Assembly: GCF_002211765.1 (NCBI RefSeq)
Contig: NZ_CP022133.1
Coordinates: forward strand, 1,364,001 to 1,428,000
Direction of reading: 5' to 3'
From: Idiomarina piscisalsi
Lineage (GTDB): Bacteria; Pseudomonadota; Gammaproteobacteria; Enterobacterales; Alteromonadaceae
DNA length: 64,000 bases
Shown here: positions 36,423-51,550 of the stretch, piece after piece
Position numbering within the stretch: the stretch's first letter is position 1
Layout of the letters: the number at the start of each line of letters is the position of its first letter
Made by a program: the position numbers and the translations under genes
Notes under the pieces: generated by a model
The model's input: the letters and a program-made list of their open reading frames with translations, nothing else
Told to the model about the DNA's origin: nothing
The model's database searches: none

Positions 36423-36435
36423 TTTGAACCATGCA

Positions 36436-36890: not shown

Positions 36891-38522
36891 ATGAGCTTCA
36901 CGAATAAAGTCAATGCGATAAAGCGTAGGCTATCAAAATTTACTAGGTCCTCTCTCATCGAAAATTTAATGAAGAGGTTGCACTCGCCAGATTCATCATT
37001 TGTAGAGGAAGCGAGCCTCCCTTGGTTAAGCTGTATCATGCTGGAGTTCATATTAGAAGTAGATGAAGCGCGAGGCGCCCGAAACGCAGACTCCAGGAAG
37101 GTATCAGAGTTGCTAAACGACTTATGGGAGCTTCAAAATGAGGCTCTCCAATTTCAAGATGATAAAAACATACTGCTCACAATGCGTCCTTTCATGATTC
37201 AGCAATTGCGGTTTCAATCAGGTCAGGTTACTCACCTCTATTTTCTATCTCGAATGCGACTTATCTTAATGGATTACAACACAAGTCCGAAACCGATTCA
37301 GGCTTTCGAAAAAAATACAGGTATAAAGCTTAAGGATTTCTTCACGCTCTCCCTATTTTTCGCTGTAATTTTCAGCAACATTTTAGAAAAAAAACAAAGC
37401 AAAATTACGTATGAGTTCATTTTAACTAAGCTTTACCCAAGCTATAGCTTGGATACCCTTGCTAGATTTCTAAGTATGGTGGGAGGTGATTTTGAGACAT
37501 TGTCAAAAATAGTGAGGTCTAGAAAAGCACATGCTGGGCCTGCGCGCCCCGAAAGGTATTTCTCGGAGTCATTACTTTTTGATAAGCCGCTTTTACTACT
37601 TCCGTCAGGAATATCAACAACTCATTCCTACATTGCATGTATTGGTTTATGTGAGTTTGTCCTGCGAACTTTAAAGAGTTGTGATAACAGCGGTAATGTC
37701 TTTAGAAAACCGTTTAGTATGGCGTTTGAAAAGTACATCAACCAACTGTTTATTGAATACGACCTTAACGTAGTTCCAGAGCACGTATTGAAAGGTAAGT
37801 ATGACGAGGATATGAAAAACAATAAAGTCGTTGATTTTTTTTACAGTACTGATGATAAAAATCTATTCGTCGACGCAAAGTCCGTTGAACCCAAACAAGA
37901 AGTTTTATCGACACAAGAGCCTAGGCGCATAAAGGAGAGGCTAAGAGATCACCTGATAGGGGCTTTAGTTCAAGCTCAAGTTTGTGCCTCTACTCTAGAG
38001 CAGTCAGGCTACGAAAACATAGTTTCAAGGTCACGTCGCTACATACTAGTTATCAGCCATCAAGACTTTTTTGTTGGAAGCGGTCTACGTCTTCGCAACT
38101 TACTTGGAAATGATTATGGACCGACAATTGATGAAGCGATCGGCGATGAATTTGAATTAGAGAATGTGTTCTATATTGCTATAGCAGAGTTTGAAGGTCT
38201 CATGAAATTGTTGCAAAACAGTCAAAAGACAATTTTCGACTTTTTAGATTTTTGCAAAGAGCGTGAGGCTGAGCAGTTTTTATTCGATATGAGGCAGTAT
38301 ATCAGTGAGTTTGGGCAAGTACTGGAACTAGAAAATCCCTCGCCGATAGGTAGCGAACAAGTACAAGAGTCGTTTGATTTTACATATGAAGACCTAAAAT
38401 CAGTTTGGAAATACAGCTCTGACTACTGGCGTAAGAAGGGAAAGGTAGATCCTTTACTAGCAACAAACGAATTCATTAGTGTAAGCAGATATTTTAGAAA
38501 TGTACTTTTGATGTCCAAATGA
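36891..38522 (+). CDS. Hypothetical protein with PD-(D/E)XK nuclease-like motif
   Basis: This 543-residue protein is unrecognised as a whole. Around residues 300-330 the sequence NKVVDFFYS followed by LFVDAKSVEP gives the D ... D-A-K arrangement typical of PD-(D/E)XK nucleases, preceded by a candidate helix with Glu (SMAFEKYINQLFIEYD). The N-terminal half is helical and may sense or contact DNA. No methylase is adjacent. It sits in the cassette block and ends about 300 bases before attC-like site B. A defence nuclease is a reasonable guess, not a demonstrated function. Confidence 0.5.
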   Translation: MSFTNKVNAIKRRLSKFTRSSLIENLMKRLHSPDSSFVEEASLPWLSCIMLEFILEVDEARGARNADSRKVSELLNDLWELQNEALQFQDDKNILLTMRPFMIQQLRFQSGQVTHLYFLSRMRLILMDYNTSPKPIQAFEKNTGIKLKDFFTLSLFFAVIFSNILEKKQSKITYEFILTKLYPSYSLDTLARFLSMVGGDFETLSKIVRSRKAHAGPARPERYFSESLLFDKPLLLLPSGISTTHSYIACIGLCEFVLRTLKSCDNSGNVFRKPFSMAFEKYINQLFIEYDLNVVPEHVLKGKYDEDMKNNKVVDFFYSTDDKNLFVDAKSVEPKQEVLSTQEPRRIKERLRDHLIGALVQAQVCASTLEQSGYENIVSRSRRYILVISHQDFFVGSGLRLRNLLGNDYGPTIDEAIGDEFELENVFYIAIAEFEGLMKLLQNSQKTIFDFLDFCKEREAEQFLFDMRQYISEFGQVLELENPSPIGSEQVQESFDFTYEDLKSVWKYSSDYWRKKGKVDPLLATNEFISVSRYFRNVLLMSK

Positions 38523-38732
38523 CATGAAAAATAATAAGGTATAAAACTAAACTTTGATTACTCTTAAGCTGATGTATCAAATAACATTTAGCATGAAGTG
38601 GGCAGTCTGCTATGAGCGAGGATCGGACCGTAGGATTTTTGACTAACTGAACTGGCTACTCGCCTTCCTGTCATTAGTAAGTGCGGGCGCGAATCAACCA
38701 CGAAACAATTATCCTATCCCTGCGTTATTGTA

Positions 38733-38780
38733 CGTTTTGTTATTGAGCTGTGTATTTAAGTAGTTTACTGTCAATGACAT
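38733..38780 (+). repeat. 48-bp inverted repeat, left copy
   Basis: The same 48 bases occur in inverted orientation at 51,286-51,333 with three mismatches. The two copies face inward around the cassette block (12.5 kb apart). The copy begins CGTTTTGTTATTG and ends ACTGTCAATGACAT. It lies 45 bases upstream of attC-like site B in a 380-base gene-free stretch. Confidence 0.8.
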
Positions 38781-38824
38781 AACGAAAACAAAAGTTAGCT
38801 CAGTTGGTTAGCGAGCCGGGTAAT

Positions 38825-38883
38825 TCATAACAAATCAAGGCACTGGAACACAGCAAGCTGTACCTCTGTTTCAGACGTTAGGC
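38825..38883 (+). repeat. attC-like cassette site B
   Basis: R'' box TCATAAC followed by AAATC and R' box GTTAGGC, 59 bases. The R' box starts the next cassette, whose own R'' (GCCTAAC at 39,276) is its exact complement, the rule for integron cassettes. Confidence 0.65.
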
Positions 38884-38905
38884 ATATCAAACGAGGGAAT
38901 CATAG

Positions 38906-39271
38906 ATGGCAAAAGTTGGTTGGAACGATTTTGTCGGAAAACACTCAAAGAGAATTACTTTCATAGCTAGGGTTTCGGCTAGCCTCCCGAAAGGTCAAGA
39001 GCTTGATAAAAATGGTAGAAAGCTTCCTACACCATACGCCCTATTTGTTGAGTGGTGCAAAGCCTATCTGACCGGAGAGTGGGCAGCAACGAAGGTTAGT
39101 GGTGGGTTTTTATTAAGCGTTTCTACAAATGAAGACGCTAAAGCCATACAGGATGAATTTAAAATAATTGGGGAAGCTAAGCGCACTCCAGCAGGGAAAA
39201 GTACTTACCCAATTGGGTATAGAGATTCACAATATGGAGCCCTTGCAGGTGACCTAGGGTATGTCTTGTGA
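38906..39271 (+). CDS. Hypothetical cassette-encoded protein (121 aa)
   Basis: This 121-residue protein has no recognised domain and a mixed alpha/beta appearance (TPYALFVEWCKAYLTGEW, KSTYPIGYRDSQYGALAGDLGY). The ATG follows an R' box by 29 bases, with GAGGGAA upstream. The TGA stop is five bases before the next R'' box, so gene and attC-C form one textbook single-gene cassette. Function unknown. Confidence 0.6.
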   Translation: MAKVGWNDFVGKHSKRITFIARVSASLPKGQELDKNGRKLPTPYALFVEWCKAYLTGEWAATKVSGGFLLSVSTNEDAKAIQDEFKIIGEAKRTPAGKSTYPIGYRDSQYGALAGDLGYVL

Positions 39272-39275
39272 GCAT

Positions 39276-39353
39276 GCCTAACAAAGTCATTACATTCATT
39301 CCCTTCGGTCACCGGACCTCGTTTCGCTCGGCCGTTTATGGCGGGCGTTAGAA
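39276..39353 (+). repeat. attC-like cassette site C (best example)
   Basis: 78 bases from GCCTAAC(AAA) to GGGCGTTAGAA. The inner part contains CTTCGGTCACCGGACC and TCGCTCGGCCGTTTATGGC, a pattern typical of chromosomal-integron attC sites in marine bacteria. Orientation is plus. Confidence 0.8.
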
Positions 39354-39357
39354 GTAT

Positions 39358-40521
39358 ATGAACACTGAAGAACTTATTGACAGCCTTCTATATGAAGAAG
39401 AAAGCACCACTCTTGATTTCAAGTCTGAGCAATATAAGTTTGTGAAGGCTCAGGACTCGGAAAAGGCTGAATTCCTAAAAGATATTGTTGCGTTCGCAAA
39501 TGCCTGGAGGCGTTCAGATGCGTATATACTTATCGGAGTCAAAGAGATAAAAGGAGGAAAATCTTTAGTTGAGGGGATTTCTGATGATCTTGATGATGCT
39601 CAATTGCAGCAGTTTGTTCAGTCAAAAATCAATAAGCCAGTACATTTTTCCTACCTAACCACAGAAGTGGAAGGTAAGAAAGTAGCCCTCATTACGATAC
39701 CCGTTCAAGGCAGGCCAATTTTTCTTAAAAAGGATTTTTCTAGTCTCAAGGCTAACACTGTTTATGTCAGGAGGGGATCATCCACTTCGATTGCACTTCC
39801 AGACGAAATAGCAAGTATGGGCTCAAGCGACAATAGTGAGGTAAAAAAATCACCGAAACTAGAGGCTTTTATTGTTAGTGGTGAGCATGATGAAATACAA
39901 CTAGATAGTATCGAACAGTCAGTAATACTTGCAAACATTCCAGGAAAAGACGAGTTTCCGAAATATGGAGAGCCCGCTTATCCAACCCAATTTCGCCCAC
40001 TTGCGATAACGTCTTCTCTTTTAGGAGGTAAAAACAAAGGGTATTACTCTGAATTCGCAGAGTACTTCAGGCAGATGCAATCGTTTTTTGCCCTAAAAAT
40101 CGGGGTGAAAAATGACGGGAATTTGGTTGCTCGAGATGTAAGAGTAGTAGTGGACTTCCAAGGATTACCAGAAGGCAGTGCTGTTTTTCATGAGCGTCAA
40201 TTACCGGATCGCCCAAAAGCAGAAACTGACATTCCATATTTACATAATTTAAATATGTCGCCTGCCATTTATTATTTAAGCATAAAGACTATCCCTGAAG
40301 GTTATCGTGCCAATTTTGACTTTGGGAAGCTGCAGTCTAAAGATTCTCTAGTATGCTCTGAACATCTATGCCTTAAGATCTCGCGGTCATGCCAAATATC
40401 AGCAAGTGTAACTATATATTCTGATGATCTTGAAATTCCTGAAAAGTTGAATTTGATGATTAATGTTAATGCTGAAGCGAAGAACTACTCAGTTAGTGAA
40501 CTAATGGAGTTGGCCGAGTGA
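39358..40521 (+). CDS. AlbA_2 (Schlafen-like) ATP/nucleic-acid-binding domain protein, cassette gene
   Basis: Residues 1-150 form an AlbA_2 domain: EEESTTLDFKSEQYKF, DIVAFANAWRRSDAYILIGV, and VYVRRGSSTSIALPDEIASM at its end. Such domains occur in transcription regulators and in several antiphage proteins. Residues 220-385 are a beta-rich, unidentified C-terminal domain. The start codon is 11 bases after the R' box GTTAGAA and the stop abuts the R'' box TTCTAAC, its exact complement. This is a clean cassette boundary pair. Catalytic activity is not established. Confidence 0.7.
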   Translation: MNTEELIDSLLYEEESTTLDFKSEQYKFVKAQDSEKAEFLKDIVAFANAWRRSDAYILIGVKEIKGGKSLVEGISDDLDDAQLQQFVQSKINKPVHFSYLTTEVEGKKVALITIPVQGRPIFLKKDFSSLKANTVYVRRGSSTSIALPDEIASMGSSDNSEVKKSPKLEAFIVSGEHDEIQLDSIEQSVILANIPGKDEFPKYGEPAYPTQFRPLAITSSLLGGKNKGYYSEFAEYFRQMQSFFALKIGVKNDGNLVARDVRVVVDFQGLPEGSAVFHERQLPDRPKAETDIPYLHNLNMSPAIYYLSIKTIPEGYRANFDFGKLQSKDSLVCSEHLCLKISRSCQISASVTIYSDDLEIPEKLNLMINVNAEAKNYSVSELMELAE

Positions 40522-40522
40522 T

Positions 40523-40611
40523 TTCTAACAAGGCGCTTAGCTTAGGTTTTCGGGTCTCTGCTGTTCGCTCATTGCTGACCTTCGGCTTTGTGCCAAGAAG
40601 GGACGTTAGCA
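40523..40611 (+). repeat. attC-like cassette site D
   Basis: 89 bases from TTCTAAC(AAGGCGC) to GGGACGTTAGCA. The 3' half shares CTTCGGCTTTGTGCCAA with site A. The R'' complement matches the R' of site C. Confidence 0.75.
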
Positions 40612-40617
40612 CAGCAT

Positions 40618-41361
40618 TCAGCGGCTTTTCCGCTGCAATGATTTGTAATGCACCTTGTCTATGTAAAAGGCGCCTGAGTTATAGGTAATCCCTACTGCCC
40701 TTGCTTCGGAGTACTTGGCTTTATCAAAATAAAGAGGCTCACTATCTACGCATATTTTAATCACCGCATCGCCGTTATAGTTTCCACTCCCCACATAGGC
40801 TGCCACGCGATTTCGAAGGTGTATAGTGCCCTGGTGATCTAGCACAGCGGTTCGGGAATATAACTTTATCGGTAACGTTTCTGTAATCCATTTTACTTGT
40901 TCTGGATAAAACATTATCTCTACGTCTACGGGTGAACCGTCGGCAGGAACATCCAAGGATTTTTCAAAAACAAATGACGCCTTGTTTTCATTGTGGAATT
41001 CGAAGCCCATTTTTTCCCAAAAAGGAATAGACGATTCGGGGTTACACTCGATGGAAACAGCCACTTTGCCATTGCTGATAGCACATTGCATTGCATATTC
41101 TACAAGCCCTTTTCCAATCCCCTTCTTTCTAAAGTCTTCACGAACCTCGAGTATGCCAAAATTTCCCCATATATAGGCAACCGGCTCATCCTCGATAGTG
41201 GCGACGAAGAGCTGATGGTCGTCATGAACTTGCTGCGTTAATTCCCAATTGCATAAAAATGAGCCATGCACATCCCGGTGGGCGTGCTCTAAAAGCCATG
41301 AATATATTGCTTCCAAATCATGTTCAGTCGCCAATCTAAATGATAAACCTGACTCTCTCAT
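40618..41361 (-). CDS. GNAT-family N-acetyltransferase
   Basis: In this 247-residue protein the first 145 residues are a GNAT fold with the acetyl-CoA loop VREDFRKKGIGKGLVEYAM (R/Q-x-x-G-x-G) and SIPFWEKMGFEFHNE. The C-terminal 100 residues are an extra unidentified domain. It follows the SIR2-like gene on the same strand by about 40 bases, so both may share a cassette and a transcript. Substrate unknown. Confidence 0.75.
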   Translation of the reverse strand: MRESGLSFRLATEHDLEAIYSWLLEHAHRDVHGSFLCNWELTQQVHDDHQLFVATIEDEPVAYIWGNFGILEVREDFRKKGIGKGLVEYAMQCAISNGKVAVSIECNPESSIPFWEKMGFEFHNENKASFVFEKSLDVPADGSPVDVEIMFYPEQVKWITETLPIKLYSRTAVLDHQGTIHLRNRVAAYVGSGNYNGDAVIKICVDSEPLYFDKAKYSEARAVGITYNSGAFYIDKVHYKSLQRKSR

Positions 41362-41401
41362 TTTCCAGCCTCAATGGTTCTAAGTTTCATTGCATAACCT
41401 C

Positions 41402-42544
41402 TCAATCATCCGACACGGTATCGTTTAACTGCATTGGGTTGTTAGCTTCATTCATTAATGTTTTTACGAAAGACTTTGCGCCACCAAAACTGAAGGTAAT
41501 GTTTCTATTACCGAAAAACTTTTTCCAATGACTCTCTAATTCCTCTCTTTCTTCTGATTCACGGTAGTCAACAATGTGAATCTTTGCGTTTTTCCTTGTC
41601 ATCCTTGACAGAAGCTGTCGCATTTCAAAGTCCGCGTAAGGCAGTGAATAACCGATAAAAACTATCTCATCAGCTTCAGAAAGCTCTATACCAGCATTTT
41701 GCCAAATAATTCGATATTGAGGATTAGATAAATCCTTTAAATATGTAGGCATTATCAAGTTGGCAGCTAGGGTATGGTTGCCTCCTTCTTCTGGAAAGTT
41801 TCTATCGCAATGTCGGCATGAAGTTGGGTTATCATAATTTATCATTGCCTCCTTGCTTGAGAACTTTGAATAAAGCCTAGAGCATCGAGGACATTGCAAC
41901 CAATTCAGTGAACCATGCAGCTTTAGCAATTTAACATTAAATCCTCCTTGCCCCAGTTTTTCTAACCCTGGCTTTACCGTACCATCATTCTCATCTTTCG
42001 AGCTTATGTAACAACAGTAATCGACTACGCCGTCATATTCCGGGTTACTCTGAAGAGTCTTATAAATTGAATTATCAAGAAGAATGTCCCAATTAGTACT
42101 TATCACACTTACTGGATCTTTTCTTCTATAGTTAACGTCTGCGCGCACTGAAGATTTCTTGGTTAAGAATTCGGCAAATTCATTTATATAATCTTTCGAT
42201 TTATCAGTTTTATTCAATAATATTTGAATCGTCTTTCCAACAACATAGAAAACCGATTCACGGACTTTCATTATTTTATCTAAACCAATTCCTCTGAATT
42301 GAGAGCTTTCACCTAAGCACCTATCTAAAGGGGTAAAAATATCTTCCAAATCTACGCTAGCGAATTTATCTTCGGATATATTAAGCTGCTCCTTGAGGAA
42401 GCCGGTAAATTCCGAGAATTTAGCATCATCATAGTAATTTCGATGTTCCTGACGCAGCTTAAAGGCTTCACGGATAATTTCAGCTTGAGTAGGACCGCCT
42501 GCATCAATCGAAAACCCCGCACCTAAGACATATACAGTTTTCAT
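41402..42544 (-). CDS. SIR2-like NAD-binding protein with zinc ribbon
   Basis: In this 380-residue protein the SIR2-type Rossmann core shows VLGAGFSIDAGGPTQ at the N-terminus, VISTNWDILLDNSIY near 145, and LKLHGSLNW near 205. A four-cysteine ribbon follows (CPRCSRL, CRHCDRN), with the final IVFIGYSLPYADFEM near 310. SIR2-like proteins of this type act as NAD-depleting effectors in several antiphage systems. No partner sensor gene is obvious except the GNAT. The start lies 30 bases after the attC-like R' box. NADase function is inference. Confidence 0.75.
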   Translation of the reverse strand: MKTVYVLGAGFSIDAGGPTQAEIIREAFKLRQEHRNYYDDAKFSEFTGFLKEQLNISEDKFASVDLEDIFTPLDRCLGESSQFRGIGLDKIMKVRESVFYVVGKTIQILLNKTDKSKDYINEFAEFLTKKSSVRADVNYRRKDPVSVISTNWDILLDNSIYKTLQSNPEYDGVVDYCCYISSKDENDGTVKPGLEKLGQGGFNVKLLKLHGSLNWLQCPRCSRLYSKFSSKEAMINYDNPTSCRHCDRNFPEEGGNHTLAANLIMPTYLKDLSNPQYRIIWQNAGIELSEADEIVFIGYSLPYADFEMRQLLSRMTRKNAKIHIVDYRESEEREELESHWKKFFGNRNITFSFGGAKSFVKTLMNEANNPMQLNDTVSDD

Positions 42545-42573
42545 AATTTCCCTTAACGCTATCTACAGTAGAG

Positions 42574-42636
42574 AGCCAACGCTCAGCCAGCAAATGGGGC
42601 GCAGCGAAATTTCTCCGCTGCAGCAGCTTGTTGGCG
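42574..42636 (-). repeat. attC-like cassette site E (minus orientation)
   Basis: On the minus strand it reads CGCCAACAAGC, a stem GCAGCGG/CGCTGC, and GAGCGTTGGCT. The R' box sits 30 bases before the SIR2-like start codon. It is partly symmetrical, so orientation is less certain. Confidence 0.55.
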
Positions 42637-42920
42637 ACGCCCACTTATCTTGCTTAACTATCACTATTCGCGTCCCTACCTTCGGGCACTACACCCCCCA
42701 AAAAAAATCAACGACTGTGCCAGGAAAAAGAACCCTGAGGCTATTGTTAGCTTTGTTCCTGCCTAAGTCGCGTTGCGGCATGAAAATCTCTACCTGTTCC
42801 CGAATTTTGGGCTGAATCCCAGACAATACATACTCAATGAAATCCTCTAACACTGAAATGTCTTGAGACACTTTGTGAATACCGGATGATTCAATTTATA
42901 CATTCACAGACTGCGCCCAC
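42637..42920. other. Cassette junction region with a weak small ORF
   Basis: 284 bases between sites E and K. A 60-codon minus-strand frame (42,689-42,871, GTG start, no ribosome site) ends in a sequence resembling translated attC (AGCTAACAATAGCC on the minus strand). I regard it as a possible decayed cassette rather than a confident gene. Confidence 0.35.
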
Positions 42921-42985
42921 ATTGAACGGTACTCCCTGAAAACAGGGACCTTACCGTTGAAGAAGACTTCATTGAATGGTTAGGC
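42921..42985 (-). repeat. attC-like cassette site K (minus orientation)
   Basis: The R'' box GCCTAAC (minus strand) lies right after the stop of the HEPN-like gene. A strong hairpin follows (AACGGTA/TACCGTT with inner CCCTG/CAGGG, 42,925-42,958). The R' side is poor (GTTCAAT), so this is an imperfect site. Confidence 0.4.
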
Positions 42986-42986
42986 C

Positions 42987-43415
42987 TTACTTTTTCACGA
43001 AGCCCAAGTGTAGGGCTTTTGTTTCCTCAACAACAAGCTGTAGACATTCGGATAGTTCATCTTCAAGGTAGAAAAACTCGCCATGCTTCTCCTGAACGAC
43101 TTCTTTGTTGTATTCAGAGCCTGTTACGATGATGAGAGACTCATGCGCCACATGGTTCCTTTGCGCTCTGAGCTTGTTCAAGCGCTTCAGGAGTTCTTTG
43201 TTGCCGTTTAGCTTGCCGAAAACATTTAACAGCCTTTCGAGGGGAAAGTTCTCAACGTCTGATATCGAATAATCAAAGTGCATACGACCATTCAGAGATA
43301 AGTCGATAAACTCATAGGCTCGCCCTATATAGAGCTTAAGCGTCAGCTCCAGTAACTGGAAATTACTGAGAATACGCAATGTCATTTCTTTGTATGATTC
43401 GCGCACATCAATCAT
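42987..43415 (-). CDS. HEPN-like protein, probable cassette gene
   Basis: This 142-residue all-helical protein has the motif RAQRNHVAHES near residues 84-94. Its R-N-H-V-A-H is the R-x4-H arrangement of HEPN ribonucleases. The N-terminus (YKEMTLRILSNFQLLELTLKLYIG) is a typical HEPN first helix. No adjacent MNT antitoxin is present. AGGAACC precedes the ATG. The stop abuts an R'' box. RNase activity is possible but untested; a structural HEPN dimer is the alternative. Confidence 0.55.
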   Translation of the reverse strand: MIDVRESYKEMTLRILSNFQLLELTLKLYIGRAYEFIDLSLNGRMHFDYSISDVENFPLERLLNVFGKLNGNKELLKRLNKLRAQRNHVAHESLIIVTGSEYNKEVVQEKHGEFFYLEDELSECLQLVVEETKALHLGFVKK

Positions 43416-43764
43416 TTCGGTTCCTAAGAGTGTATTGTACCGATCGTGTGAGATCAGCTCCCTTGCAAGCTACATTACCTTGTAAGGTCAGAAAATCCAA
43501 TGTCCTCTTTTGGCACATAGCAGGCTTTCGACTTTCATTAGATGCGTACATTTGATCTGTAATCCTCGGTTCCAACTGAACTCTTACAACACGATATCTA
43601 GCAAGTCGGTGGCGACTCAGTCGAGCGGAAATTAAGTTAATGAAGAAGCAAAAAAATAGAGGTTCTTAAAGTCATGAAAAAACAAGTAAAGTCTTACTTT
43701 AATCAGAAGTCAAATATTTCAATGACTTACATAAAAGTAAGTCTTACAATGATTGTATAATTTG
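43416..43764. promoter_or_regulatory. Gene-free region with two operator-like dyads upstream of the recombinase leader
   Basis: About 350 bases without a gene. Two related dyads occur: AAGTAA-agtc-TTACTT at 43,684-43,699 and GTAAG-t-CTTAC at 43,737-43,747, both containing AGTCTTAC. They precede palindrome copy 4 by 18-81 bases and may bind a regulator of the recombinase transcript. Confidence 0.5.
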
Positions 43765-43780
43765 TGCGGACATGTCCGCA
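43765..43780. promoter_or_regulatory. 16-bp palindrome copy 4 (TGCGGACATGTCCGCA), upstream of the structured leader
   Basis: Exact copy of the palindromes at 29.3-29.8 kb, found 14 kb away. It lies about 60 bases before the start of the structured leader and 285 bases before the recombinase ATG. It probably overlaps or borders the promoter. Confidence 0.8.
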
Positions 43781-43840
43781 TAAAAAAGGTTGATGCTCTT
43801 AAGTCAATAAGCTAAGTTAATAGCATAATCACAAAAGACG

Positions 43841-44050
43841 CTCGGGCTGTCGCAATCACCACAAGGAGAAACAAATACTAAAAAACGCCCGAACCTTCCA
43901 AATAATATCGTTAAGATATTTCGGCTAGCTAGCCGCTTGAGTAATTACCCCTGTTTATCTTAGATAGCTTTAAAGGTGCGCCTTTATAGCGGGGTTTAAA
44001 ACTCACCTACTACTGACATTACTCAATATTCGGGCTTTTCTTTCTTTTTT
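43841..44050 (+). ncRNA. Candidate structured leader RNA with switchable terminator
   Basis: Three mutually exclusive segments are visible: CTCGGGC (43,841-43,847), GCCCGAA (43,887-43,893) and TTCGGGC (44,029-44,035), the last followed by a T-rich run. Segment 2 can pair with 1 (antitermination) or 3 (termination). Between 2 and 3 are nested elements: ATATC/GATAT, a perfect 14-base palindrome CGGCTAGCTAGCCG, a long-range stem TTGAGTAAT/ATTACTCAA, and inside it ACCCC/GGGGT enclosing TAAAGG-tgcg-CCTTTA. An AAGGAG with no start codon lies between 1 and 2. It ends 15 bases before the recombinase ATG. The fold is by eye; a cis-regulatory, trans-acting or DNA-level recombination role is open. Confidence 0.6.
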
Positions 44051-44064
44051 ATTTAGGAGCCCAT

Positions 44065-44928
44065 ATGAGCAAACTTGGATATACACTGAATCAACTAATA
44101 AAAAAGCAGCGAGGCGGATCGTTCGCTACTCGTTCAGCTTCAAAGAGAATTCTAAACTTAGTAGCTAAAGAGCTTATTGAAAAAGGATACAAGATAAAAA
44201 GTCCTGATCAGCTCAAACCAAAGCACATAGAATACTTGGTGACTAAGTGGCGTCAAAATGAGCTCTCAGCAGCCACCATAAAAAACAGAATGGCTGAGCT
44301 TCGCTGGCTCAGTGCACAAATAGGTAAACCTAATATCGTCCATCGCACGAATGACGCATACTCAATAAGTCGTAGGGTCTTCGTTGGGGCGAATAAAGCG
44401 CACAACCTGGACATGTCCAAGCTTCAAAGTATTCAGGATATACCAACAAGATACTCCTTACTGCTCCAATCACACTTTGGACTTCGAAAAGCTGAATGCA
44501 TCCACTTTAATGCAGCATACGCTGATAAAGAGGAGCACATTTATCTAAAAAGCACATGGACTAAAGGAGGCAAAGCCCGTTCTGTTCCTATAAAAACTCA
44601 AGGGCAGCGAGATTTGCTCAACGAAATTAAGGCAAAGTTCGGCTCTAAGTCGCTAATAGCTGACAACCGTAACTTTAAAGAACAAATGAAAGTTTATGAG
44701 TACGAAACATGTCGTGTAGGTTTAAATAGAAACCACGGATTACGACACCATTACGCCCAAAATCGATTTGAAGACATTAGCGGCTACAGTTGTCCCCACC
44801 GAGGTGGAAAATCCAGACGAGAAATGTCACCGGATGAGAAAGGGGTTGATAACAAATTTCGCAGGCAATTAAGCAGAGAGCTAGGACATGAGCGAATACA
44901 GATTACAGCTATGTATATTGGATCGTAA
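44065..44928 (+). CDS. Small tyrosine recombinase (phage-integrase family, Integrase_1-like)
   Basis: This 287-residue protein has an N-terminal DNA-binding domain (about 1-100, ending NRMAELRWLSAQIGKPN) and a catalytic domain. The latter has Arg in HFGLRKAECIHF, His-x-x-Arg in NRNHGLRHHYAQNRF, and LGHERIQITAMYIGS with His and Tyr. An insertion before the last helix contains CPHRGGKSRREMSPDEKG. It resembles the N-plus-Integrase_1 recombinases common on gammaproteobacterial mobile elements. AGGAGCCCAT precedes the ATG, directly after the terminator of the leader, so expression needs readthrough or an internal start. It is not an integron IntI by any feature I can see. Confidence 0.75.
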   Translation: MSKLGYTLNQLIKKQRGGSFATRSASKRILNLVAKELIEKGYKIKSPDQLKPKHIEYLVTKWRQNELSAATIKNRMAELRWLSAQIGKPNIVHRTNDAYSISRRVFVGANKAHNLDMSKLQSIQDIPTRYSLLLQSHFGLRKAECIHFNAAYADKEEHIYLKSTWTKGGKARSVPIKTQGQRDLLNEIKAKFGSKSLIADNRNFKEQMKVYEYETCRVGLNRNHGLRHHYAQNRFEDISGYSCPHRGGKSRREMSPDEKGVDNKFRRQLSRELGHERIQITAMYIGS

Positions 44929-45031
44929 AGCTAAATGAACTTTCAGATTTTTCTCAAAAATTTTTTGTTTCAAAAGGCAGGCAGCTAAAAATAGCTCCCC
45001 CTCAAAAAGGTCGTTTTGTGCCACGAACAGA

Positions 45032-45103
45032 CGTTAACGTCTAGCTCACCGGAAAAATTGCTCGCTAAGCGCCAAGTTTTTCCGGTGCAGTTATTTGTTA
45101 GGT
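45032..45103 (-). repeat. attC-like cassette site F (minus orientation)
   Basis: On the minus strand it reads ACCTAAC(AAATAAC), an 11-bp perfect stem CACCGGAAAAA/TTTTTCCGGTG, and GACGTTAACG. The R' core GACGTTAACGTC is itself a 12-bp palindrome. It is preceded on the plus strand by a half-site TTTTGTGCCACGAACA, as if two attC sites meet head to head. Confidence 0.75.
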
Positions 45104-46053
45104 GATATAGCTTCATAAAAGCTATCTGACATTTGGTTACTATTGTCTACCAGCATCACTCCTGAGTCATCTTTTTTAAGAGCATATTCGATCAAACGAA
45201 TTCTCTTTGGGCCAACTTTTCCACTGTTAGTTATGTAAGCCCGATATTCTTCATGAAGTTCAACACAAACTGAACGAATATTTTTTTCGTAAAAGTACTT
45301 ATACTTCGTATGCTTATCAGAGGGGAAGTTATCCCGATAGTGAACATTAAACTCAGGGTAAAAATATTTAATCAAGGTTCCTTCAATTACTGTTTTCCAA
45401 TCTTCTTTTGGAACGTCCTCTAACAGCCCATTTCCGGGCATCCAGTCACTCCTAGAATCATCACTTGCTATTTCCGGGAGCATCATCACCCTAGCAAACG
45501 GTGGCTGAAATGACATTAACTTAACAATTACTTCTTTTTCCGGTCTATTTGATATTATGTCATTTGCGACTTTGCTGATTTTTTCATGCACGTCAAATCT
45601 CAGATAAGGTCCGTCTGTAATTTCTGTTTGTCCTATATACATAACTTTAATATTAAGAAGGTCCTCAAGATGTTTGTGCCACCCCATTTCGGAACCAACC
45701 ATTTCAAGAAATATAAAAACAGTTTCAAACCCTTGTTCACTGCCATTACTATCGTGAATAACAACAGACTTCCCACGGATTTCCATCGAAACTGTGACAC
45801 CCTCATGAGTAGCCTGCATGAATAGCTCGTATTCTTTCCAATCAAATTCATTTATCTGCTTGGAGACAACAAACCTAATATAGTCCTTTGTGTTAACAAC
45901 TGATTCTGGCTTTATTCTTAAACGATTAAACTCACACACTTGATAGTGTGTGAAAGGCTTAACTTTATTTATTTCAACTATTTCTTTACGTTTAAGCTGA
46001 TTGGGCTCGGCCAAACAAATGAAATCCAATACTGTGTTAAATGAAACTAACAT
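45091..46053 (-). CDS. GIY-YIG-like cassette protein 1
   Basis: In this 320-residue protein the segment VMYIGQTEI near 140 and the later IKYFYPEFNVHYRDNFPSDK with YFYEKN resemble the Y-I-G and terminal E/N elements of GIY-YIG nucleases. They align with the neighbouring protein at 46,147-47,070. I start at the ATG with AAGGAAAAAC upstream (MLVSFNTV); an earlier TTG lies in the attC. The last codons (CCT AAC AAA TAA) are part of the attC R'' box, a signature of cassette genes. Nuclease activity is speculative because the catalytic region is divergent. Confidence 0.55.
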   Translation of the reverse strand: MLVSFNTVLDFICLAEPNQLKRKEIVEINKVKPFTHYQVCEFNRLRIKPESVVNTKDYIRFVVSKQINEFDWKEYELFMQATHEGVTVSMEIRGKSVVIHDSNGSEQGFETVFIFLEMVGSEMGWHKHLEDLLNIKVMYIGQTEITDGPYLRFDVHEKISKVANDIISNRPEKEVIVKLMSFQPPFARVMMLPEIASDDSRSDWMPGNGLLEDVPKEDWKTVIEGTLIKYFYPEFNVHYRDNFPSDKHTKYKYFYEKNIRSVCVELHEEYRAYITNSGKVGPKRIRLIEYALKKDDSGVMLVDNSNQMSDSFYEAISPNK

Positions 46054-46080
46054 GTTTTTCCTTGTTTCAAGTAGATAGCC

Positions 46081-46152
46081 GTCTAGCGTCTGGCTCAAGC
46101 GCTCGTTCTGAGCCAGCGGAACAAACAGGCCCCGCTAACATATTCGTTAAAT
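46081..46152 (-). repeat. attC-like cassette site G (minus orientation)
   Basis: The minus-strand R'' ATTTAAC is the exact complement of the R' GTTAAAT at site H, the expected pair for the cassette between them. Inner stem TGGCTC/GAGCCA. The R' of this site reads GCTAGAC, one base off the G-TT rule, so it may be damaged. Confidence 0.65.
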
Positions 46153-47070
46153 TGAAAAAAATGATTTCCTATCGCTGGTTTTATGCAAATCGAAATACGC
46201 AATATGATGAACTTTGCTTTCCACTTTTTCTGAACATAACTGAAAGGGAAACGGTTCCAAATAAAATTCACCTACAACTCCTGTGAAATCTTTTTCATAA
46301 CAATCTTGGAGTACCTTTAGGTTCGTGGAAGGGAAGCTGTTTTTGAATTCTTTGTTAAACTCAGGTTGAAAATAACGGATCATAGCTGCCTCATATAGAG
46401 AGACCCTTTCCTTCTCATCAGTACCGAAAAGTTTGTCTAATCCTGACCGTATACGCAGGCCTCCGGAATCCTTGATTTCCGCTCTGGGATTGAACTGAGT
46501 AACAATTTGATTGTTGGGCTGTACCTGCACTAGCAAAGCCCGCAACTGATATCCATCAGGAACACCGCGTAGCGATATTTTTTGAAGTGTTTCGTGGCTT
46601 AATAGTCGATCGAGAGCATTTCTTGAACCGTCTTTTCCGTATGCTTGGCCTATATACTTGACGTTAAATTCCATATTCCTTAGGTGCCCCAATTGAAGCA
46701 CCACTTGCTCATCGTTAGGCCAAAAAGTGTTTCCTTCTGCGTCCTGAAGAAAAACACGGTCACCATCTTCTTTCAGCTCTGCTCCATGTGGTGCTTGCCA
46801 TTTTAACTCGTGGTTTTCTCCAAGGACTGAGTAGCTAGTTGTCAAAATATTATCTTCAAGCGACTCTGCCAGCAGGCTTATGGAAGGTGCATAACCGATC
46901 ATGTAGATGTGGCAAGCGTCGATGATTTCTTTATGCTGTTCGAGCATATCGGACTCATAGATTGCCCATGCAGGAAGGCTAACGTAGCTATATGCGTACA
47001 TGCTAATGGCATGCTCGACATCAAACTTTCTGTTAGAAAATGGATCGCGTGAGGAGTTTTTATCGGACAC
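46147..47070 (-). CDS. GIY-YIG-like cassette protein 2 (relative of protein 1)
   Basis: This 307-residue protein contains VKYIGQAYGKDGSRNALDRLLSHETLQKI, a good GIY-YIG start with Arg and His spacing. The block AAMIRYFQPEFNKEFKNSFPS with YEKDF aligns with protein 1 (KYF-PEFN---SFPS---YEK). The N-terminal 130 residues are a separate domain. GTG start with AAGG eight bases upstream. The TAA stop lies inside the R'' box ATTTAAC. Together with site H this is a clean cassette. Probably a nuclease-like domain with a different sensor half; function unknown. Confidence 0.55.
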   Translation of the reverse strand: MSDKNSSRDPFSNRKFDVEHAISMYAYSYVSLPAWAIYESDMLEQHKEIIDACHIYMIGYAPSISLLAESLEDNILTTSYSVLGENHELKWQAPHGAELKEDGDRVFLQDAEGNTFWPNDEQVVLQLGHLRNMEFNVKYIGQAYGKDGSRNALDRLLSHETLQKISLRGVPDGYQLRALLVQVQPNNQIVTQFNPRAEIKDSGGLRIRSGLDKLFGTDEKERVSLYEAAMIRYFQPEFNKEFKNSFPSTNLKVLQDCYEKDFTGVVGEFYLEPFPFQLCSEKVESKVHHIAYFDLHKTSDRKSFFSI

Positions 47071-47118
47071 TTGCGGACCTTCCTTTCAGAGTTTCTTTTA
47101 GAATCCAGTGTATGTTCA

Positions 47119-47212
47119 ATTTAACGCTTGCAGCACACGCGCCCACGGAATGGAACCGAAGACGCAATGTAGTGGGCGTCGCAATGCCTGTACTTGTGAT
47201 AGCTGCTCAAGG
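47119..47212 (-). repeat. attC-like cassette site H (minus orientation)
   Basis: The R' box GTTAAAT (minus strand, preceded by AAGC) is a perfect GTTRRRY. The site contains a long stem: CGCCCAC/GTGGGCG inside GCAGC/GCTGC. I cannot find a clear R'' on the right, so the outer end is approximate. Confidence 0.6.
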
Positions 47213-47229
47213 CGAAACCATTTTACAAG

Positions 47230-47823
47230 TCAGCTTCCCCAACTCAAAAACCATATACTGATTCCCAAACAGATTCCGATCACGAAGACTGATAAGGTCA
47301 GGGGAATTTTGTCTCTAAAAAAACTAAATTGTTTTTGCTCATTTACCCAATCTATCTGGTGCTGCCAAAAAAACTTATAATGAGCATACCAATCGCTAAG
47401 CATTATTTGTTTACTTTGGCACAATGAATAATATTCAGCCTGAAACGCAGATAATTGATTTTCCAGCTCCGTGATATCTTTTTCATCAGCGCTCTTTGCT
47501 TTTCGATAAAGATTTCCAAGTTTATTGTATAGCTTTGTCAATGCTATTCCAGATACCTCATACTCTAACTTATTGCTATCATAAAGTGATATATACAACC
47601 CAACGATGCCTAGAATTATAAAAGAAGCGGAAAGAAATTTGGTCGACAAACCATCAAACGCAAGTGCATAAATGCCAAAAGCCATTGAAAAAAAACTTAT
47701 AAATCCAGGAGTTTTCTCGACTATGTCATATGTGGAAAAATGCTTTTTTGCACCAAACCCAACATTATAACCAGTCTCAGCGATAGCTTTTAATAATTCA
47801 TCTTTTTTCATAGTTTTTTTCAC
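47230..47823 (-). CDS. SLATT-domain membrane effector (CBASS effector)
   Basis: This 197-residue protein has two hydrophobic helices near 38-85 (FISFFSMAFGIYALAF, FIILGIVGLYISLYD), an amphipathic coiled segment (DEKDITELENQLSAFQAEYYSL) and a C-terminal helix. This is the SLATT architecture predicted to form membrane pores in nucleotide-second-messenger defence. Its start overlaps the CD-NTase stop by four bases (ATGA), so it is translationally coupled. It probably kills or arrests the cell when the nucleotide signal is made. No ligand-sensing domain beyond SLATT is visible. Confidence 0.75.
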   Translation of the reverse strand: MKKTMKKDELLKAIAETGYNVGFGAKKHFSTYDIVEKTPGFISFFSMAFGIYALAFDGLSTKFLSASFIILGIVGLYISLYDSNKLEYEVSGIALTKLYNKLGNLYRKAKSADEKDITELENQLSAFQAEYYSLCQSKQIMLSDWYAHYKFFWQHQIDWVNEQKQFSFFRDKIPLTLSVFVIGICLGISIWFLSWGS

Positions 47824-49109
47824 TGAATGGGAACATCAATTCTGTCTTTGGCTACAACAACACCATTTTTAATAGCATAACACTCTACAACGTGCTCACC
47901 TCTAAAGTCTGTACTTTCCTTCCTCTTATTGTAGCCTTCGTCCGAAAAAATTTGACCACGGATGCAATCTTTTCTCTTAGCCTCAGCCCCTCTATTCAAA
48001 ACCTTCCATTTTATTAAATATGGCTCTGGCACACTACAATACTTCACTGTGAATAGTAATTTTTTATTTGCCAGTAGTGGTATCGCCTTTGCTAGCATGT
48101 GTGTTAAATAGTGCTCTCTGAAACCGCGCTGTGAAACTTCGCACTCCAAAGTCATTGAATACCGAATATCGACGGGATATTGGTCTTCAATAAACTGCTC
48201 GGTATCACGCCAAGCTTTTTGACTTTTCGCTGCAGATTCTTGAACCTTCTGGGTCTTGCCGGGGAAGGGACGGCCATAAACTTTCTTCCATTTGTTATTG
48301 GCGCTATCCGAATCACCGGCTTCGATAGCGCTTAAGCAAAGCTGATATGCTTTTTTAGCTTTCCTTTGAAATTTACTTTTTACTTTGACGTTCTGGCCGC
48401 TGCCAAGAGCTTTATAATGGCTTTGATCAGGCAAATCGGACAGGTATTTGAAAAAGTCTCGGCCCATCCAATCATAATACAAGTAACTTCTACCATCGTA
48501 GTCAGATGTAGAGTTAAGAAAATTATGTGCTAAAGTATCAATAAGCAGGCCCCCTATTCCTACTCCGTGCTTGTTTTTCCATGCCCTAGCCATCTTACAC
48601 AATCGCCGTAGATTTCTATTTTTTTGCTCGACGAACTCTTTCATTGCTCGTATTTCTTCGCGAGGCTTGGTGATCGACCAGCGACCACCGTTATACGTAT
48701 CTGGGTACTTAAAACTTCCATCTTCCTGTTCGAAAACTGGCTGCACTTCTATGTGAAAGTTTTGGTAAGTTGCAGTTACTACCAGCCTATCGACGCGTAC
48801 ATCTGTTTTCGGGTATCTAGCCTTGATCGCATCCTTTGCGTCGGTCAGTAATTTTGATTGGCCGCCACTCTTATATTTATCCCATTGACCTGCTGGCATA
48901 ATATACAACATATCTAAATCGGAAACGCCTTTAATGGCTGTCCAGCGGCCGTAAGAGCCTACCTGTAAGCTATTGTTGGTCTTTGATTCTGAGTCCCTAA
49001 ACTTTTTATTGAGACTGGATGTAATTTCACCGTAACGTGAACTGATAGTGTCAGCATTATCAACTCTCAGATTATTCAGAAAATCAGAAAACATTTCAGC
49101 TACAGCCAT
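47820..49109 (-). CDS. CD-NTase (SMODS) with C-terminal AGS-C domain, CBASS signal synthase
   Basis: In this 429-residue protein the nucleotidyltransferase signature GSYGR is at 51-55, with SDLDML at 63-68 (catalytic Asp pair) and FHIEVQPVF near 118-126 (third acid). A nucleotidyltransferase second lobe follows, with the region ending RLCKMARAWKNKHG near 175. Residues 335-429 match the AGS-C domain (RGQIFSDEGYNKR, RGEHVVECYAIKNGVVVAKDRI). Such enzymes make cyclic or linear oligonucleotides on phage infection. It forms a minimal two-gene CBASS with the coupled SLATT protein; no Cap2/Cap3 or HORMA/TRIP13 genes are present. The start is 63 bases inside an attC R' box. Confidence 0.88.
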   Translation of the reverse strand: MAVAEMFSDFLNNLRVDNADTISSRYGEITSSLNKKFRDSESKTNNSLQVGSYGRWTAIKGVSDLDMLYIMPAGQWDKYKSGGQSKLLTDAKDAIKARYPKTDVRVDRLVVTATYQNFHIEVQPVFEQEDGSFKYPDTYNGGRWSITKPREEIRAMKEFVEQKNRNLRRLCKMARAWKNKHGVGIGGLLIDTLAHNFLNSTSDYDGRSYLYYDWMGRDFFKYLSDLPDQSHYKALGSGQNVKVKSKFQRKAKKAYQLCLSAIEAGDSDSANNKWKKVYGRPFPGKTQKVQESAAKSQKAWRDTEQFIEDQYPVDIRYSMTLECEVSQRGFREHYLTHMLAKAIPLLANKKLLFTVKYCSVPEPYLIKWKVLNRGAEAKRKDCIRGQIFSDEGYNKRKESTDFRGEHVVECYAIKNGVVVAKDRIDVPIQ

Positions 49110-49165
49110 AGAGAACTCTACATTGATATTTAAGAAATTGTTTGGGTCTGACGCTTACATTGAGC

Positions 49166-49266
49166 CTATAACGCCCCAAACAGAGGCAAATAATTGTTGA
49201 CTAAAATTAGCGACGCAGGAGCAAAAAGCCAACAATTACTTGCCCTGCTGGTTTGGCTTGTTAACG
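49166..49266 (-). repeat. attC-like cassette site I (minus orientation)
   Basis: 101 bases. On the minus strand R'' is CGTTAAC(AAGCC) and R' is GGCGTTATAG. The nested stem has CAAACAG/CTGGTTTGG outside and GGCAAaTAATTGTTG/CAACAATTAcTTGCC inside. The 2TM gene stops inside this site. Confidence 0.75.
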
Positions 49267-49757
49267 GTACTACCTGAAGCCTTTGCATTATCTAATAACT
49301 TACCTACCAACAGCGCCGACAGGTCAGAAGTAGGATAACCAGGCAACGGACTCTGAACCGAACCGTTATTTGAAGCTCCACTTTTAACATTGAAGGCATC
49401 AACAGTTAGTGAAGAAATAATTTGGTCTATAGCTCTTTCATCAAAAGACTGAGCGATATTTAAACGAGCAAATGCCAATTTATAGTGCTCATACTTTGAT
49501 ATTTCGGTTAAATGATACCTGTGAAGAGCCATTAGCACTCCAAAAGCTACAACACAGAATGCAGATAGAGTTAAAGTAGAACTTGTTGATGCCGCATCAG
49601 GGCCAACCCCATAGCTGGGGTATATAACCATTCCACCAAAAATTAATGCTGCTAAGGAAAACATGAAGTGCAATTGTGATCTCATTTGATGGTGCTTGAG
49701 TCGCTCAGAGCAAAAACCTAAAGCACCATCTATTCCTGATATATTTCCGTTACTCAT
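49236..49757 (-). CDS. 2TM cassette-encoded membrane protein
   Basis: This 173-residue protein has two hydrophobic helices at about 28-46 and 62-80 (FMFSLAALIFGGMVIY and LSAFCVVAFGVLMAL), with the remainder soluble. Its C-terminus STVNKPNQQGK is encoded by the attC R'' region. The start is 17 bases after the R' box GTTAGCA. The layout recalls SLATT/2TM effector-like proteins but no family is certain. Function unknown. Confidence 0.6.
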   Translation of the reverse strand: MSNGNISGIDGALGFCSERLKHHQMRSQLHFMFSLAALIFGGMVIYPSYGVGPDAASTSSTLTLSAFCVVAFGVLMALHRYHLTEISKYEHYKLAFARLNIAQSFDERAIDQIISSLTVDAFNVKSGASNNGSVQSPLPGYPTSDLSALLVGKLLDNAKASGSTVNKPNQQGK

Positions 49758-49784
49758 TTGTACTCCATGGTACTGCTAACATCT

Positions 49785-51106
49785 ATGGACGCTCCCAATT
49801 GTGCAAGTAAAATATCGAAGCCAAAAGAGTGTGTTGCAGCCATCTATCCGGGCTCTTGATGTCGATTATTCGACGGCCCCTGACGGTATTCGCGAACTGG
49901 GGCCTAATCATTTGAACGCTCTTTTTAGAGCTATGTTAGGTTCAGGTTTACCCAGTGACGATGTCATCTCTTTGCCTTCTACTTTTTACCTGCGCAACAC
50001 GGTTGCGAGCTGTTTAACAGGAGTATGACTCCTGATACTTTGTTCCTTTACTTAATAACGCCCACACAATTCTTGCTAATTTATTGGCCAGCGCCACTAT
50101 CACAACATTCTTATGTCGTCGGCAGAGTAAATCTCTGAGCCACCGGCTTACTGTGCGTTTCGGGTTCAAGTGACGGATAACCGCTCTGGCACCGTGTATC
50201 AACATACTGCGTAGGTAACTATCACCGCGCTTACTGATGCCCTGTAGTTTGCTTTTACCACCACTCGAATGCTGTTTAGGTACAAGACCTAACCAGGCAG
50301 CGAACGCTCTGCCGTTACTAAAACTCTTAATATCACCGAAACTGGCCACCAGCGCGGACGCCGTTAACGGGCCGATACCCGGCACTTCACCCAGTCTTTT
50401 ACAATCTTCCGCGCTACTGGAGTTTCCGTGAATTTCTGACTCCAGAAGCGCTATGTGCTCGTCCGTTTCCCAAAGCCTAGAAACCATCACATGAATATGC
50501 CGTCGCAATAGCTCGGGGAGTTGTGATTCAACGGCGCCATATTCTTCTTTAAGCCAACTCCTGAACTTATGAAGACCGACTGGTGCTATCACGCCGAACT
50601 CACCCATCATTGCACGTAGCCGGTTAACCAGCGATGTTCGATCCCGAACCAATCCTCTTCTGTCACGATGCAGAAGCATAAGAGCTTGCTGCTCAACTGA
50701 TTTTATCGCGACAAAACGCATGCTGGGTCGCACGACCGCTTCACAAATAGCATCCGCATCAGTTGCGTCGTTTTTATTCGTCTTCACATAAGGCTTAACG
50801 TACTGCGGCGGCATAAGTTTAACTTCATGCCCTAACTGCTCTATCTCTCTCGCCCAATAGTGAGAACTACTGCATGCTTCCATTCCTACAATACATTTGG
50901 GAATATTAGCCAGCATAGGTAAAATCTTAGCTCTACTAACCGAACGGTTGAACAAGCGCTTACCCGAATTATTAGCGGCGCAGACCTGAAACACGTTCTT
51001 AGCTAAATCAATTCCAATTACCGATATAACTTTGTCCATTTCGCTCTCCTCAAAACCCTGTTCTTAACGGAACAAGTTTAGTGGACTTTTAGAGGGGAGC
51101 GTCCAT
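49785..51106 (-). mobile_element. IS110-family insertion sequence (IS1111 group)
   Basis: About 1,322 bases with 12-bp perfect inverted repeats ATGGACGCTCCC/GGGAGCGTCCAT and one transposase. The longer non-coding end (about 229 bases) is on the 3' side of the transposase, typical of the IS1111 group, whose bridge RNA is encoded there. It abuts a minus-strand GTTAGCA R' box at 49,774, in line with IS1111 members that target attC sites. Confidence 0.8.
50014..51039 (-). CDS. IS110-family transposase
   Basis: This 341-residue DEDD transposase has an N-terminal RuvC-like fold with IGIDLAKNVFQVCA and later MEACSSSHYWARE. The segment NKNDATDADAICEAVVRPSMRF supplies further acidic residues. The C-terminal Transposase_20 region has EVPGIGPLTASALVASFGDI and the conserved serine region SKLQGISKRGDSYLRSMLIHGARAV. 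It appears intact. It works with a bridge RNA that pairs with donor and target DNA. Confidence 0.92.
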   Translation of the reverse strand: MDKVISVIGIDLAKNVFQVCAANNSGKRLFNRSVSRAKILPMLANIPKCIVGMEACSSSHYWAREIEQLGHEVKLMPPQYVKPYVKTNKNDATDADAICEAVVRPSMRFVAIKSVEQQALMLLHRDRRGLVRDRTSLVNRLRAMMGEFGVIAPVGLHKFRSWLKEEYGAVESQLPELLRRHIHVMVSRLWETDEHIALLESEIHGNSSSAEDCKRLGEVPGIGPLTASALVASFGDIKSFSNGRAFAAWLGLVPKQHSSGGKSKLQGISKRGDSYLRSMLIHGARAVIRHLNPKRTVSRWLRDLLCRRHKNVVIVALANKLARIVWALLSKGTKYQESYSC

Positions 51107-51550
51107 ACCATTATTTGTATATTGCGCGTGCCCACTTTGTCACCCATTAAATTGGTCGGTACCTAGCTTTAAGTTACTGAGCTAAAAAGATTCCAACCAT
51201 GAAACGCCATAAATCAGCAAAACTAATTTGAGCATGATCAACTAAACTCTAACAAGCGCAGACTACCCAACTGTGATTTTTTATAATGTCATTGACAGTA
51301 AACGACTTAAATACATAGCACAATAACAAAACGCGCAATATTGCAGAGATAAGTATGCCATTCCTGATTCTCACCTCCCGCTCTTACTAATAAGAGAGAG
51401 GTGAATAAACAGTTGAGTTAGGCAAAAATCCTAACCCTAGCTCATCGCGGTCTGACTGCCTAATCCCAAAAGTGAAGGTTATCGCCCGAAATAACCGGTA
51501 TGGTTCAGCTAATCCGGCGGCATAGGCACTTAGTTTATTGACTTGTTCGA
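51107..51550. other. Gene-free region right of the IS, with hairpin
   Basis: 444 bases without a credible gene. It contains the right 48-bp inverted repeat copy, an attC-like R'' string CTCTAACAAGCGC at 51,246, and a hairpin CACCTC...GAGGTG with inner CTCTT/AAGAG (51,372-51,402). Confidence 0.6.
51286..51333 (-). repeat. 48-bp inverted repeat, right copy
   Basis: Reverse complement of 38,733-38,780 with three mismatches in 48. Beyond the core the sequences diverge at once on both sides. Confidence 0.8.

Follow-up and report, generated by a model that had tools for sequence, protein, structure and literature searches.

A conserved structured RNA in the leader of a tyrosine recombinase gene, most likely part of a mobilization module, in a genomic island of Idiomarina piscisalsi

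Layout of the locus

We analysed a 64,000-nucleotide stretch of the Idiomarina piscisalsi genome (contig NZ_CP022133.1, positions 1,364,001 to 1,428,000; hereafter the window, whose own numbering is used throughout). The genome comprises 2.59 Mb in a single contig. An island region extends between a tRNA-Pro gene (26268) and an integrase with an arm-DNA-binding domain (59546–60883, minus strand), which is the island's own and stands besides a second, 287-aa tyrosine recombinase encoded on the plus strand at 44065–44928. The left part of the island carries a single-copy inverted repeat (29055–29088) and three copies of a perfect palindrome, followed by a transposon-like segment of 13.7 kb (about 30046 to 43764) with three tandem tyrosine recombinases and a small DUF6262-like protein. 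The right end of this segment falls within 43763–43766 and abuts a fourth palindrome at 43765, and a second copy, 99.97% identical, is located near 2.18 Mb of the same genome. Downstream of the recombinase, the cargo on the minus strand includes a SLATT effector (47230–47823) and a CBASS-type cyclase (47820–49109).

The leader and the recombinase gene form one unit. In another genome of the genus (G003), positions 43765 to 44942 are matched at 90%, and the flanks in G003 are unrelated on both sides; the 16-bp palindrome at 43765–43780 is the left edge of the unit common to both. These sharp boundaries were the pattern behind the idea of a simple insertion-sequence-like element, which we rejected, as relatives keep the upstream inverted repeat and no terminal repeats were seen. 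Ahead of the first cargo gene, at 45029–45087, the recombinase is followed by a 14-bp palindrome (AGACGTTAACGTCT) as well as an imperfect inverted repeat of 20 bp. These are attC-like at first sight, and no repeat of them was listed in 44900–59700.

A conserved folded RNA in the recombinase leader

The leader contains three complementary segments on the plus strand whose pairings exclude one another, CTCGGGC (43841–43847), GCCCGAA (43887–43893) and TTCGGGC (44029–44035), the last of which is directly followed by a T-run (TTTTCTTTCTTTTTT) that extends to 44050. A 14-bp palindrome (CGGCTAGCTAGCCG, 43922–43935) and a long-range 9-bp stem (TTGAGTAAT, 43937–43945, with ATTACTCAA, 44018–44026) that encloses nested hairpins are also present, so that all of the pairing elements listed in an earlier reading of the sequence alone were found. 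That sequence-only reading had also placed a terminator 15 nt before the ATG at 44065; the stem and T-run are indeed there (44029–44050, plus strand), and the spacing is 14 nt. A simple scan for hairpin terminators did not call this one, because it is composed of a long-range stem plus the T-run.

Folding of the region 43765–44064 gave a z-score of -2.13 (4/200 shuffles as good), and the core at 43880–44054 reached -3.47 (0/200 shuffles as good) with the nested structure that had been described before. We consider this core, on the plus strand, as a candidate sgm-sRNA-like RNA on the basis of covariation and fold z-score. Its outer stem pairs 43887–43893 with 44029–44035, its junction stem pairs CCCC (43948–43951) with GGGG (43991–43994), and the inner hairpins and the T-rich end also belong to it. 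The sequence AAAACTCACC (43998–44007), unpaired and positioned after the junction stem, is the window copy of a family motif, AA[AC][AG]CT.A[CTG]C (AAMACTNACC-like).

To place the leader among its homologues, genomes were scanned, at least 550 relatives of the recombinase were confirmed and 80 loci were kept, 76 of which were used in the counts below. Among the matches listed, the recombinase and its leader are found in many Gamma- and Betaproteobacteria. For the window clade we aligned 15 leaders and predicted their structure with RNAalifold, which returned 34 pairs, 15 of them with compensatory changes; an independent count showed that 93.3% of the cells pair. None of 500 shuffles reached the observed covariation on four of five measures, while the fifth, the number of pair types, was not above shuffles (296/500). 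The long-range stem, the inner hairpins and the outer stem are thus maintained through compensatory changes in homologues. The proposal that the leader holds a structured RNA, for which covariation among homologous leaders had been named as the check, is therefore borne out by covarying pairs as well as by a discrete terminator-like end.

More distant leaders gave a comparable picture. In an alignment of 23 of these (out of 31 prepared), 12 of 20 pairs covaried in the automatic structure and 13 of 24 once the junction stem was added by hand; for the latter structure, 0/500 shuffles matched the observed value on four measures and 5/500 on the fifth. The two sides of the junction stem often change in step (GACC/GGTC, GATC/GATC, GAGC/GCTC and GTCC/GGAC among the 46/76 loci matching the hairpin pattern; AGCC/GGCT in the Alteromonas group; CCCC/GGGG in the window), and the stem is imperfect in some leaders, with 79.3% of cells paired in the distant alignment. 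The unpaired motif occurs no more than 330 nt upstream of the gene in 68/76 loci, against an expectation of 0.028 per 330 nt. On the gene's strand, G-U pairs far outnumber A-C pairs (41 versus 8, and 40 versus 7), which points to an RNA read in the direction of the gene. Judged from these comparisons, the leader encodes a conserved folded RNA that is common to many related recombinase genes.

A covariance model of the distant set (R2) was applied to 40 held-out recombinase sources. It recognised the leader at E < 1e-4 in 15 of them, each time immediately before the gene, and gave weak matches at the corresponding position in three others, while 22 had no match. In the 730 kb searched, no match at E <= 1 fell outside this position (18 matches in total). 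R2 recognised 0/12 window-clade sources at E <= 1. The window-clade model (R1) gave only four independent matches, all weak (L076, L118, L111 and L033; E 0.016–0.12) and all directly upstream of the gene, its other matches being loci used to build it or near copies thereof. When R1 was run on 295 genomes of the order, the share of which carrying the gene is uncounted, the one match was the window's own. Since R2 misses the window clade and the R1 matches are weak, the window-clade leaders can be linked to the distant ones through their architecture, motif and position and through the homology of the proteins. With respect to known RNA families, a search of the window and 16 sources against Rfam at the curated score matched only tRNAs and no family at the leader, and the matches of one distant leader all stayed below threshold, at E 0.32 or worse.

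The recombinase

The 287-aa protein combines PF12834, its N-terminal domain, with PF12835. Six residues (R141, K167, H224, R227, H275 and Y284) are invariant in 28 aligned sequences and are taken, from the alignment, as the catalytic R-K-H-R-H residues and tyrosine; the protein ends three residues past this putative catalytic tyrosine. The AlphaFold2 model had a mean pLDDT of 91.4 and a pTM of 0.67, and the best Foldseek matches were two-domain tyrosine recombinases, with the integron integrase 2a3v first (E 1.2e-6, TM 0.53). By sequence, the family profile had no match among solved structures. The comparison with IS110 recombinases made in the sequence-only reading is hence not sustained, as the protein is a two-domain tyrosine recombinase and not IS110-type. 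In the comparison for an IntI integrase, the protein matched only recomb_XerC, far under the cut-off of that model. Its closest named relative is from Idiomarina loihiensis (91%), and one search with the protein family matched 1587 clustered proteins at E <= 0.001.

Palindromes, gene units and cargo

The four palindromes of the window (29277–29292, TGCGGACATGTCCGCA; 29385–29400; 29764–29779; 43765–43780) mark unit boundaries. Elsewhere in the clade, the perfect palindromes at unit boundaries are ATTWGGCATGCCWAAT or ATTCGGCATGCCGAAT. In the window clade, GRCATGYC-centred palindromes divide the cargo, part of which is predicted to serve phage defence, into small units. Such units occur in both orientations, and their cargo includes a DRT2 reverse transcriptase (L070), PDC-S06 (G023) and, in G003, an AbiEii flanked by two palindromes. 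The 14-base palindrome core was also sought in 19 genomes of the genus: only G000 and G003 had exact copies, and three other genomes had one place each with one mismatch.

Several further observations were made on these units. In two loci (L071, L072), some palindromes downstream of the recombinase continue as perfect inverted copies with arms specific to the unit, reaching total lengths of up to 44 bp. A recurring small protein that ends in ...DDGMGNIIADGEHMTRQEAEDAQARGELYDTYY or alike is found in the units of L064–L073, usually as its own palindrome-bounded unit. Pairing of an RNA loop with the palindromes was considered from a resemblance by eye in some leaders and rejected, as it was not kept in others.

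The end of the recombinase gene is a frequent boundary between related loci. Specifically, in 24 of the 53 pairs at >=80% identity, homology stopped within a zone from 12 nt ahead of the gene end to 30 nt past it, with 14 pairs running further and 15 stopping inside the gene; for all 177 pairs, which are not independent, 61 stopped at the gene end, 34 further on and 82 inside. One locus carries a complete Thoeris ThsB/ThsA pair (L105, 10815–12301) between the recombinase stop codon and a convergent integrase, and this pair is absent from relatives L095, L108 and L114. In L132, when compared with L103, an insertion of ~4.8 kb with several tyrosine recombinases starts at the gene end, and its far side has a 15-nt stretch resembling the gene end of relatives; here other elements seem to target the gene end. 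Copies of the recombinase 3' end as cassette sites were rejected, with 8 near-copies in all versus 14 to 32 for six control 16-mers. We also rejected cassette gain as the explanation of the difference between two Glaesserella plasmids (pHS-Rec and pD74). This difference of 2.1 kb, which holds speD and radical-SAM genes, starts 236 bp behind the recombinase gene, and the P450 gene that comes next has a shorter annotation in pHS-Rec; it therefore has the appearance of an ordinary deletion.

A single inverted repeat and a possible mobilization module

When the upstream flanks were compared, a perfect inverted repeat (GTCMCTRC...GYAGKGAC) emerged, in most cases 0.5 to 1 kb before the gene. It was found in 45/76 loci, upstream of the gene in all 45, and not in the remaining 31; reversed sequences gave 0. 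Among the 69 loci with 1 kb of room, 40 had it at -1000 to -250. The window copy, CGCATCGTCCCTAC-TTTTCG-GTAGGGACGATGCG (29055–29088), is a candidate oriT core. In G003 the repeat (L028, 6208) is likewise left of the units, and in the window its distance of 14.8 kb from the RNA is due to the cargo and the transposon-like segment that stand between them. Exactly one copy per genome was counted in 15/15 window-clade genomes, which were picked as carriers of the recombinase gene. With one copy per genome, an origin of transfer fits better than a pair of integration (att) sites, and the latter was rejected.

The order of these elements recalls Salmonella genomic island 1 (SGI1). As published, SGI1 transfer needs MpsA, MpsB, oriT and an sRNA whose gene stands between oriT and mpsA (PMC9299015, PMC6414798); this sgm-sRNA is essential for transfer (PMC9299015). 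MpsA belongs to the tyrosine recombinase family, is described as an atypical relaxase and depends on MpsB (PMC6414798, PMC9299015). As the succession of inverted repeat, RNA and recombinase matches that of oriT, sgm-sRNA and mpsA, we interpret the recombinase as a relaxase of the tyrosine-recombinase type with an RNA as its partner. By this analogy, the most probable reading is that the leader RNA and the recombinase belong to a DNA-transfer (mobilization) module resembling that of SGI1. Specifically, we estimate a probability of roughly 60% that 43765–44928 would be the trans-acting half of the mobilization module of an integrative mobilizable element.

In such a module, 43880–44054 would be transcribed in the direction of the gene, and the transcript would fold into the conserved RNA, ending at the stem and T-run just before the gene. 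The 287-aa protein, with DNA-binding and catalytic domains in one polypeptide, would nick the element through its tyrosine at the oriT-like inverted repeat. The RNA might then be a required partner of the nicking complex, or of the hand-over to the coupling protein and type IV secretion system of a helper, as suggested by oriT, sgm-sRNA and MpsA/MpsB of SGI1. The earlier suggestion that the leader RNA is a functional partner of the recombinase draws its support from this analogy. The data establish the structure, the order of the elements, their conservation and the copy number; transcription, nicking, the need for the RNA and transfer are deduced.

Two further aspects bear on this reading. 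The presence of the island's own integrase (59546–60883) counted in favour of a mobilization role for the second recombinase. In addition, relatives of the recombinase occur beside coupling-protein genes in plasmids, which fits a relaxase or transfer function. In Vibrio plasmid pSIO1, the recombinase gene is followed by a small-protein gene and then a coupling-protein gene (PF02534); three Acinetobacter plasmids show the same succession by annotation, and an Alteromonadaceae contig has the coupling-protein gene after the recombinase and small-protein genes with one more gene between. In all five of these loci (L150, L152–L154 and L032), recombinase, small-protein and type IV coupling-protein genes are close together. 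Within the stretches examined, a coupling-protein gene was present in only 2/76 genome loci.

Alternative explanations

It is possible, if unlikely, that the leader is an attenuator or riboregulator of the recombinase gene only, in which the outer stem and T-run would stop transcription unless CTCGGGC captures GCCCGAA, with no later role for the RNA. The T-run immediately precedes the ribosome-binding site and start codon, as would suit such a switch, and the competing segment is present in the window and partly kept, as CCTGGGC, in the nearest relative (G003). However, CTCGGGC is the least conserved piece of the leader and lies outside the well-aligned part in all leaders other than that of G003, while the inner junction and the unpaired motif are conserved beyond the needs of a switch. 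Many distant leaders, moreover, have the motif 24–34 nt before the gene with no T-run between. A second view, that the leader folds as single-stranded DNA during transfer and is part of oriT itself, would be in line with the three conserved stem-loops upstream of mpsA reported for SGI1-type oriT (PMC8409611). We regard it as highly improbable given the excess of G-U over A-C pairs on the gene's strand, the separate single-copy inverted repeat and the separation of sRNA core and oriT in SGI1 (PMC9299015).

The palindromes raise a different question, namely whether the recombinase may be the agent of the unit exchanges. An integron-like cassette platform, in which it would exchange units at the GRCATGYC palindromes and the leader would be an attI-like site or a cofactor, agrees with the best fold match (2a3v) and with several features of the units. 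In 12 window-clade loci, all but one of the 45 palindromes with arms of at least 7 are downstream of the gene, and the first starts no more than 5 nt from the gene end in 6/12 loci. Many units contain a single gene, units carrying the same small genes turn up in more than one genus, and L064 differs from L065/L066 by one unit swapped between two palindromes. All four copies in the window genome are within the island, and 37 of 46 places of ATTYGGCATGCCRAAT (up to one mismatch, 14 other genomes, counted by hand) are on the contig of the locus. Nonetheless, 9/46 are on other contigs, the side on which the palindromes stand varies (5' in the window and G003, 3' elsewhere), and some palindromes reach a total of 44 bp through unit-specific arms, unlike a fixed core site. 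A palindrome repeated three or more times was found in 9/10 window-clade loci and in 0/46 distant loci of the family, although leader and gene are conserved there. We therefore hold a cassette platform to be quite unlikely as the function of the leader and gene, and favour the mobilization module modelled on SGI1.

A possible wider class of RNA-associated relaxases

In the literature on the protein family, structured leaders, palindromic cassettes and tyrosine-type relaxases (mostly from outside subscription journals and bioRxiv), the family was not described as a mobilization module, nor was its RNA. In the available parts of two reports, an integrase of the family appears beside mcr-4.3 in a Shewanella plasmid (PMC9769806), and PF12834 is not named in a classification of tyrosine recombinases (PMC8138268). 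The authors of the SGI1 work noted that the module seems unique and discussed several roles of the RNA, none of them settled, in the part of the paper available (PMC9299015). Our tentative suggestion, for which the odds are slightly short of even, is that SGI1 sgm-sRNA belongs to a general class, in which the relaxases of a large tyrosine-recombinase family each work with a dedicated structured RNA and one inverted-repeat origin, and that the islands of one clade also gather defence genes as palindrome-bounded cassettes.

If this were true, such modules would be RNA-dependent DNA-transfer machines, and many proteins annotated as 'integrase' would be reclassified as mobilization proteins. It would also suggest how islands without a recognised relaxase, several of which have anti-phage cargo, may move. 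The natural variants, the covariation-supported structure, the conserved unpaired motif and the single-copy cis site make the help that an RNA may give to a tyrosine-recombinase relaxase directly testable.

Comparison with known systems

Integrons consist of IntI, attI and attC. The recombinase shares their two-domain tyrosine recombinase fold (2a3v), and in the window's clade gene units are found beside it. In contrast to integrons, the boundaries in this clade are perfect palindromes, units occur in both orientations, and the genome has no match over the cut-off for integron integrases (TIGR02249, best 72.6 bits versus 265), so that a classical integron was rejected. In IS110/IS621 elements, a bridge RNA is a non-coding RNA encoded beside the recombinase gene, as in the window, although the enzyme family is unrelated; the RNA described here goes with a single-copy inverted repeat and not with insertion-sequence ends.

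Closer parallels are found among tyrosine recombinase-like relaxases. MobK of plasmid pIGRK and TcpM of pCW3 resemble the recombinase in this respect, and MobK has relaxase activity and a cis site (oriT) just upstream on a small plasmid (PMC8152469). The available part of that report describes MpsA, MobK and TcpM as being without a core-binding domain and mentions no RNA partner for MobK and TcpM, both of which set these proteins apart from the locus described here (PMC8152469). The missing core-binding domain counts against the mobilization reading, as the 287-aa protein has one.

SGI1 is the published parallel to the locus as regards structure and order. The claim of the sequence-only reading that no named family has this layout stands insofar as no Rfam model matches; the layout itself is shared with SGI1, where oriT, sgm-sRNA and mpsA follow in the same order (PMC9299015). 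Both are integrative elements with a separate integrase, and in both an inverted-repeat site is followed by a structured RNA and a tyrosine recombinase-like gene. The SGI1 sRNA arises by processing of a transcript directed towards mpsA, whose end lies close to a hairpin at the start of that gene (PMC9299015, PMC6414798), and the RNA of the window would, if transcribed as we infer, likewise run towards its gene and end near a hairpin at the start codon. The main difference is in the protein: MpsA is described without a core-binding domain, which MpsB resembles, whereas in the window both domains are fused in a single protein of 287 aa.
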